A stretch of 64,000 nucleotides of DNA from Chlorophyllum brunneum (taxonomy: Eukaryota; Basidiomycota; Agaricomycetes; Agaricales; Agaricaceae), in contig OY756140.1 in NCBI GenBank assembly GCA_963576785.1, forward strand, positions 3,472,001-3,536,000, given 5' to 3'. This document shows positions 61,010 through 62,958 of this stretch, in pieces. Each line of letters opens with the position of its first letter. Position 1 is the stretch's first letter. Under the pieces are notes generated by a model. The model did no database searches, had not been told where the DNA came from, and worked only from the letters and a program-made list of their open reading frames with translations. The position numbers and the translations under genes are program-made.

Positions 61010-62958
61010 ATGGGTTCCTGTATGTCCTCGCCAACTCCCTCGGTGGAGATCAGTGATGAGGAGAAGACCCGTAACAGGGAGATTGACAAGCAGCTCAGAG
61101 AGGTCGGCTCAGTGTCTGTCTTCCTAACTCTACCGCTTGCTAATCGATTTTACCCGCAATCCAGGCAAAAGCAAAGATGGCGGCTCAGGTCAAGGTCAGC
61201 TCATATTCCTTAACTACCAGCGCTGGGGGGGTGCTGATTCATGAGTTAGGTCTTGCTACTTGGGTCTGGGGATTCTGGAAAGTCAACCATCCTCAAGGTG
61301 GGGCAACTGGACTAAAGCGTCAATGCATCATCGTCTAACCCTTCTTCTGGTAGCAAATGCGCCTCATCCACAAAGTACCTTTCTCACAGCAAGAGATAGA
61401 GTCTTACCGACAACTCGTGTTTGATAATATCACCCGGGGCCTGCGGTATCTCCTCGATGCTATGGACGAATTCGAGATCAAGGTCTCGGAGGAAAATATA
61501 TCCAACGTAGAAACCATTGACAATGCTACGGATATTGGTGATGGTGAACCATTCCCAGCGCGGTACATCGAGCCGCTCAAGGCGCTCTGGACTGATCCGA
61601 ATGTACAACGGGCCTACGAGAGAGGGAACGAAGCGGCTCTTCCGGAGAAGTACGTCCCTTAATTGTTATCACCCGGGCCAAGTGCTAACGCTCCTCTAGC
61701 TTACCCTACTTCTTCGCCGACCTCGATAGACTTTTCCAACCCAATTACCAACCCACGGAGCAAGACATCATCCGGTGTCGAGCGCGAACGATTGGTATCA
61801 CCGAAACATCGTTCCACCTTAGGGAAAACGAGCTGTTAATGGTTGATGTGGGGGGTCAGAAGAGCGAACGGAGGAAATGGATCCACTGCTTCCAGGACGT
61901 CACCAGTATCTTGTTCTTGGTCAGCCTGAGTGGGTACGACCAGTGCCTCGTGGAAGACAAGGATGCGGTACGCAACAATAATCTTCTTATATTCCCTGGC
62001 ATCTTTGACACTACGCACTCAGAACCAAATGCAAGATGCGATGACGATTTGGGATTCAATATGCCATTCGCAATGGTTTAAACAAACATCAATTGTGGGT
62101 CATCCAACATTGTTTCTGGCATTTTCTACATGCACTGGCGACAATGCTTGGTTACTGTTGACCGGCGTGGCAGTGTTATTTTGTTCTCACTCTACGGTTT
62201 GCCTGTCTTGCGCGGAGTTAACTAACGACATATCCTTACCACAGATCCTGTTCCTTAACAAAAACGATCTTTTCGAAAAGAAGGTGCCTGTTTCGGATAT
62301 TAAGAGCTTTTTCCCTGTACGTCACTAGTATTTTCCTTCCAAAAACATCTGACTAAATTGACGTAATTACAATTCGTGTACTTGTTTGGGCCTACAGGAC
62401 TATGATGGTGAACCGGGAGATGTGAGGGCCGGAAGGGATTACTTCAAGCGGCGGTTTGCCAAGTTGGCGCAAAAGGCTGGTAGGTCGAAGGAAAGAGAAA
62501 TTTATATCCAGTGAGTATACTTGCTTCCATACTCTATCGTCCCTGGCCGCTGCTCTCCCGCTCTGCTAACCTATTACTAACACATCTCGCCCCTTAGTAT
62601 AACAACGGCAACGGATACAGCTATGCTGAGAGTTGTGATGGCCGCTGTAGAAGGTTAGTCTCCCTTGGCCTTACCCTCAACTCTATTAACTGACCACGGT
62701 TCTTCTTCCCTTTCCCGAACTTGCCGATCTCTAGAGTGAGTGCTCCACCTTTCAATTATTAACGCCCCTTTTTTTTCCTCTGTCTTCTTTTCCATCTTTA
62801 CCCCTTGCTTTGGATGGAAAAGTTGGGGTCCGAAATGGACCAGTGCACCCCGCCTTCGTTCATCCCGTTCATCTGCTGAATGAGTGGACTATCAATTCTT
62901 ACGACGCTGCTTTAGTATCATCTTGCGCTCAAATCTCGAGGTCGCGGCGCTCATCTAG
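61010..62958 (+). CDS. Heterotrimeric G-protein alpha subunit
   Basis: Eleven exons: 61010-61102, 61165-61194, 61250-61297, 61354-61649, 61700-61967, 62023-62094, 62245-62316, 62398-62510, 62598-62653, 62735 (one base) and 62916-62958. They sum to 1,092 nt and 363 residues, the usual G-alpha length. N-terminal MGSCMSS offers myristoylation (Gly2) and palmitoylation (Cys4). Motifs: P-loop VLLLGSGDSGKSTILKQM (Asp where many have Glu), switch I RCRARTIGITET, switch II LMVDVGGQKSERRKWIHCF, NKxD in ILFLNKNDLF, TCAT-type ITTATDTAM, and C-terminal VVMAAVEDIILRSNLEVAAL with final Ile. It couples seven-helix receptors (pheromone or nutrient) to effectors at the plasma membrane. The Asp of VED is encoded by bases from three exons. 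There is no pertussis-toxin Cys at position -4. Confidence 0.93.

Follow-up and report, generated by a model that had tools for sequence, protein, structure and literature searches.

Can a single nucleotide serve as an exon in a gene for a G-protein alpha subunit? The question is raised by a locus of Chlorophyllum brunneum within the 64,000-nt stretch of DNA analysed here (the window), which belongs to a genome of 38.9 Mb in 14 contigs. The gene occupies positions 61010–62958 of the plus strand, with eleven coding exons and ten introns (Table 1). When the A at 62735 is included, the spliced coding sequence translates into 363 amino acids without internal stops, and the protein ends in VEDIILRSNLEVAALI followed by the stop codon. 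This translation matches the Pfam G-protein alpha subunit profile PF00503 from position 2 to 333 of 333 with 410.4 bits (cut-off 48.8), and it contains the motifs GSGDSGKST, DVGGQ, NKND and TATDT, which we take to be the P-loop, DVGGQ, NKxD and TATDT elements of nucleotide binding. Solved G-alpha proteins also match (best E value among the matches listed, 9.4e-89), and the top homologue among the best 120 of 6,485 comes from Leucoagaricus, of the family Agaricaceae, with 93% identity over 96% of the query. By these similarities, the product is a G-alpha subunit of the Agaricomycete group that the homologue sources call GPA2-like or "alpha subunit 4".

Table 1. Coding exons of the G-alpha gene and the introns on either side of the single-nucleotide exon (positions in the window)
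Feature	Positions	Strand	Details
Coding exon 1	61010..61102	+	93 nt, begins MGSC
Coding exon 2	61165..61194	+	30 nt
Coding exon 3	61250..61297	+	48 nt, P-loop GSGDSGKST
Coding exon 4	61354..61649	+	296 nt
Coding exon 5	61700..61967	+	268 nt, DVGGQ
Coding exon 6	62023..62094	+	72 nt
Coding exon 7	62245..62316	+	72 nt, NKND
Coding exon 8	62398..62510	+	113 nt
Coding exon 9	62598..62653	+	56 nt, TATDT; last bases GTA GAA G (G is base 1 of the Asp codon)
Intron 9	62654..62734	+	81 nt, GTTAGT...CTCTAG, branch-like CTGAC 41 nt before its end
Single-nucleotide exon A	62735..62735	+	Middle base of Asp codon GAT
Intron 10	62736..62915	+	180 nt, GTGAGT...CTTTAG, 3' end lacks a nearby CTRAY-like branch site
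Last coding exon	62916..62958	+	43 nt: lone T (base 3 of the Asp codon), then IILRSNLEVAALI, stop (tail A)

The original prediction held that this A lies alone between two introns and restores the frame of the conserved carboxy terminus. Its boundaries proved exact: GTAGAAG ends at 62653 before GTTAGT, CTCTAG runs to 62734 ahead of the lone A and GTGAGT starts at 62736, and CTTTAG runs to 62915 with the T at 62916 opening the last exon. One base thus separates the acceptor AG from the donor GT (CTCTAG-A-GTGAGT, 62729–62741). Splicing and translation with the A reproduced the predicted coding sequence of 1,092 nt, and the flanking introns have the predicted lengths of 81 and 180 nt. Joining exon 9 directly to 62916 yields VEVSSCAQ..., out of frame, as had been claimed. 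The base is needed for both the frame and the family sequence, and the other in-frame routes alter the family sequence. We listed all single introns with GT or GC donors from 62600, AG acceptors and a length of at least 35 nt, and three of them keep the frame: one using the acceptor at 62884, which the original prediction had correctly described as in frame, and two that it had not mentioned, from a donor at 62658 (GTCTCC) and from a GC donor at 62625, the latter deleting part of the alpha-5 helix. A second listing covered inserted exons of 1, 4, 7 ... 58 nt bounded by AG and GT, with at least about 30 nt on each side. Two keep the frame: the single A, and an exon of 40 nt whose donor GTGGAC is weak and which lengthens the protein by 13 residues.

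A site of this strength is unlikely to have arisen by chance. When the 262-nt gap was shuffled 20,000 times with its dinucleotides kept, the pattern YAG-A-GTRAGT appeared in 0.0002 of the shuffles; its frequency was 0.0017 per 262 nt on both strands of the surrounding 78 kb, where this site is the sole instance. If every GT is accepted as donor, the bare pattern YAG-A-GT is not rare, at 0.09 per 262 nt locally and 0.044 in shuffles, so the strength of the donor carries the argument. The Pfam profile slightly favours the protein reading VED at this junction (410.4 bits versus 407.1, 406.1 and 406.3 for rival proteins), a weak separation because the profile ends soon after the Asp.

For further evidence on the junction we turned to orthologues, using protein models together with short contigs (1.1–3.2 kb overall) treated as cDNA. 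Pattern searches for orthologous genomic DNA in the viral_contigs and genome_contigs collections gave matches, none of them from a relative. A homologue search returned 6,485 proteins, and the best 120 were sorted by hand by source into a genome set (n = 66; named genomes or nr) and a transcript-like set (n = 54; short jgi, lgn and ena contigs of 1.2–3.2 kb with an uninterrupted frame of at least 325 codons). Because the window's gene has ten introns, short contigs with an uninterrupted frame are most easily read as cDNA. Among these 120 proteins, which were not selected by tail, the shared MAAVE is followed by D and a tail of 11–13 residues in 54 of 54 transcript-like sequences and in 0 of 66 genome models, 3 of which end before exon 9. 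The genome models comprise 22 that stop after VEE, 3 that stop after VEG, the 3 that end early, 12 with a tail that lacks the Asp and 26 others. One of these 26, the Serpula lacrymans model P0079, reads VED and then continues into an unrelated tail, PPYYVMSASGFN; our regular expression counted it as VED, and we treated it as not having D plus tail. Two tail-directed searches (best 120 of 207 and best 120 of 185), which are biased toward proteins with tails, brought the totals for VED plus tail to 72 of 72 transcript-like sequences, 18 of them from these searches and 54 not, versus 0 of 89 genome models, again including the 3 that end before exon 9. One transcript-like sequence, P0042, was set to tail B (below) by hand.

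Individual pairs bear this out. The closest transcript-like sequence, P0005, is 95% identical to the window protein over 311 aligned residues, and its tail is identical to that of the window protein, with the end again reading VEDIILRSNLEVAALI. Another, P0003, carries VED and tail A, reading VEDTILRSNLAIAALI; it is 100% identical over 291 amino acids to a genome model of Leucoagaricus gongylophorus that lacks this tail and finishes in residues resembling neither tail type. The Asp is invariant in 12 of 12 aligned transcript-like orthologues with tail A and is also present in solved Gq.

The errors in the genome models are themselves informative. If intron 9 of the window's gene is removed and reading continues, GAA G|AG TGA gives VEE-stop; reading through the first donor (GGTTAG) gives VEG-stop, and moving that donor by four bases gives VEGY. 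Genome models of relatives repeat all three outcomes, with VEE-stop in 22 of the 66 models in the first list and 26 of the 89 in the larger set, and VEG-stop in 3 of each. A VEE-stop end presupposes AG or AA plus a stop right after the acceptor, and A-GTGA provides this. Such models come from Agaricales (for example, Agaricus bisporus), Russulales (Bondarzewia), Polyporales (Irpex) and Corticiales (Punctularia). Models from Heterobasidion, Boletus edulis, Coprinopsis cinerea and Psilocybe cubensis fit tail A one base off, and for each of the four, 0 of 2,000 shuffles fitted as well; these were picked for their frameshifted look, and they are the 4 tested of the 8 genome tails with A or V as first residue. 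The tails of P0079, P0150 and P0038 gave no out-of-frame fit, which their first residue rules out. In C. cinerea, one strain has a VEE-stop model and another an out-of-frame one, on bodies identical at 346 of 349 positions, and together the two error types point to both edges of a missing base. In Suillus, Gloeophyllum and Jaapia, the models have the D replaced or a residue added, which supports a missing base less directly for Boletales, Gloeophyllales and Jaapiales. Public models that lack or garble this end include C. cinerea P0016 and P0043, A. bisporus P0002 and Schizophyllum commune P0076.

At the protein level, the orthologue evidence for the exon therefore consists of the division between 54 of 54 transcript-like sequences and 0 of 66 genome models (3 ending before exon 9), the VEE-stop models in four orders and the four out-of-frame tails. 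The support would span four Agaricomycete orders and, more weakly, three more, and the one-base exon is apparently widely conserved in Agaricomycetes.

Several other explanations of the locus have to be weighed against this pattern. One intron from the donor at 62658 to 62915 would be in frame and stop-free and would give VEGYIILRSNL, with Gly-Tyr in place of Asp and one residue more. Six of the 89 orthologue genome models have one extra residue here, such as Suillus with VEGYIVLRSNL, but none of the 72 transcript-like orthologues has a VEGY-type junction, the GTCTCC donor is weak and overlaps the stronger GTTAGT site, and the resulting protein falls 3.3 bits below VED on the G-alpha profile, a small difference; we judge this route very improbable. 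We give still less credence to a single intron at 62654–62884 with the acceptor AATGAG, which would insert the 11 residues VDYQFLRRCFS before the tail. It too is in frame and stop-free, and 8 of the 89 genome models have 6–41 extra residues before tail A, yet its GAG acceptor is weak and an insert before the tail is found in 0 of 72 transcript-like orthologues, none of which was matched to the eight species with inserts. The natural products could instead be the truncated VEE-stop or VEG-stop forms, through intron retention, with the tail unused. The 26 VEE-stop and 3 VEG-stop ends among 89 genome models would agree with that, as would Flammulina filiformis P0046, a VEE-stop protein without a listed contig that might be a cloned cDNA. 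Against it, neither end appears in any of the 72 transcript-like orthologues, many of which conserve the tail, making truncation as the natural outcome scarcely credible; a retained-intron form is possible as a minor product.

The remaining two explanations concern the DNA itself. A base missing from the assembly at the last acceptor would make a single ordinary intron sufficient, and one assembly of C. brunneum was used. A single local error cannot explain why 0 of 66 genome models from many species pass the junction correctly (3 end before exon 9), or why four models fit the tail one base off, and we consider such an error exceedingly improbable. Nor do we see more than the slightest chance that the element is a stwintron (twin intron) whose excision takes two steps, with the A incidental: two consecutive short introns and probably ordered removal would fit, but both introns have complete GT/AG ends, a coding A lies between them, and that A is required in the message. 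We put the probability that base 62735 is a real one-nucleotide exon of the G-alpha gene at about 0.94. The sequence, the reading frame and the pattern among orthologue proteins were observed directly, with the Asp in 72 of 72 transcript-like orthologues and the junction right in 0 of 89 genome models, and they support the original prediction. The presence of A 62735 in the mRNA of C. brunneum would follow from what is seen in its relatives.

The orthologues also revealed two kinds of tail. After the same Asp, 41 of 72 transcript-like sequences have tail A (IVLRSNLETAALI type) and 31 have tail B (AIISKNIRTIML type), and the type of tail does not track likeness in the body. The tail-B sequence P0122 is 99.1% identical over 348 residues to a Suillus genome model with tail A; conversely, the tail-A sequence P0059 is 100% identical over 337 residues to a Lactarius tabidus genome model that ends in IRDIML, a tail-B end. 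This exchange points to tails A and B as possible alternative last exons of one gene; they might instead belong to recent duplicates. In relatives, the one-base exon seems to sit just before the choice of receptor-contacting end. A profile built from 35 tail-B sequences did not find tail B on the plus strand over 15.4 kb from 62600 (best scores 1.9 for stop-terminated matches and 12.4 without a stop, against a member minimum of 26), with tail A scoring 45.1 at 62917 as a positive control. Searches with tail-B peptides by tblastn and with a regular expression likewise returned no tail B near the gene, and only tail A is seen nearby in C. brunneum. We think it reasonably probable, though with appreciably less confidence than for the exon itself, that an ancient one-nucleotide exon, kept across the sampled Agaricomycete orders, forms the junction to either last exon, giving one G-alpha body two interchangeable receptor-contacting tails; this species would have tail A only, or tail B beyond the 15.4 kb from 62600 onward.

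We looked by tblastn for the interrupted Asp position in four paralogues of the same genome (L001/L008, L003, L007 and L010) and did not see it; their alpha-5 region reads unbroken. The remaining G-alpha-like loci gave no clear tail in this search. One of the four, at L007:2686-2790, runs through alpha-5 uninterrupted and carries Glu (VKETILQNAL) at the position usually taken by Asp. Across the genome, G-alpha-like stretches amount to 47 profile matches, counted exon by exon, which suggests an expanded family.

How might such an exon be spliced? The Asp codon GAT of the alpha-5 helix would be spread over three exons, with G from exon 9, A alone and T from the last exon. Two features of intron 10 weigh against the one-base exon. 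The base before a donor is usually G, and before the donor of intron 10 it is A. The nearest CTRAY-like branch site in intron 10 lies 153 nt from its 3' end; each of the other nine introns has such a site 11–45 nt from its end. Most likely, introns 9 and 10 would each be recognized by intron definition, which their lengths of 81 and 180 nt suit, and be excised in succession, because an acceptor and a donor one base apart leave scarcely any room for splice factors on both simultaneously. This stepwise order matches the view of the Arabidopsis authors who, in the available text on APC11, call simultaneous removal of both introns very unlikely and favour intron definition with stepwise removal (PMC4674806). 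As for origin, the available text of a Fusarium study proposes that a base was lost beside a splice site and that a cryptic one-base exon came to the rescue (PMC12940212); a second intron inserted a single base away from the first could equally account for it. The exon probably arose before the split of the sampled Agaricomycete orders.

Documented one-nucleotide exons are few. This one lies in a signalling gene that model and edible mushrooms share; if it proves to be kept throughout a fungal class, it would offer a clean test of how the spliceosome handles an exon too small for simultaneous binding at both splice sites. Without A 62735, the protein would lose the end that faces the receptor. 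The examined public models of this G-alpha gene lack or garble that receptor-coupling end (0 of 89 correct, 3 ending before exon 9), which matters for cloning or deletion. The two-tail arrangement in relatives, if confirmed, could let one G-alpha serve two sets of receptors.

The single-base exon of placozoan cox1 lies between mitochondrial introns, which are not processed by the nuclear spliceosome. Single-base exons of this mitochondrial kind, cox1 among them, are reported to occur (PMC5436844). Stwintrons of Ascomycota, which consist of one intron lodged within a splice element of another (PMC5639578) and leave no exonic base between the two, resemble the present case in having two consecutive short introns at one place with probably ordered removal; they differ, as far as the available description goes, in that both G-alpha introns are complete and leave a coding base between them. 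Alternative final exons that alter the end of a G-alpha protein are described for vertebrate GNAO and cephalochordate GNAS (PMC5896119), and the Agaricomycete relatives differ from these, as portrayed in the accessible text, by exchanging only the last residues after a shared Asp, with the one-base exon apparently preceding the choice. In the literature searched, made up of titles and abstracts and few subscription papers, none of the one-nucleotide exons listed belongs to a G-alpha gene or to the nuclear genes of a basidiomycete.

Nuclear one-nucleotide exons are documented in land plants, in APC11 (PMC4674806) and VPS55 (PMC8831610), and in CYP621A of Fusarium, an ascomycete (PMC12940212). 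The original prediction had called such exons extremely rare and pointed to one well-documented plant case; APC11 is such a case, but VPS55 and CYP621A show that it is not the sole one. In the available text, the two plant exons share with the G-alpha exon a single base between AG and GT that is needed for the frame and missed by annotations; they are conserved across a wide group, as the G-alpha exon apparently is, and in APC11 the base is also A (PMC4674806). They belong to other genes and another kingdom, their splicing was proved by cDNA sequencing and for APC11 also by mutants, and as described there no choice of last exon follows the base (PMC4674806, PMC8831610). The CYP621A exon, by the accessible account, is likewise fungal, supplies the second base of a codon within a conserved motif, is wrongly annotated and was found through the frame of orthologues; its base is G, it comes from the genus Fusarium and SRA reads confirm it (PMC12940212), whereas the G-alpha exon has an A and draws its support from models in four Agaricomycete orders and, more weakly, in three more. 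The one-base exon of the G-alpha gene is a new case beside the known one-nucleotide exons of plants and Fusarium.
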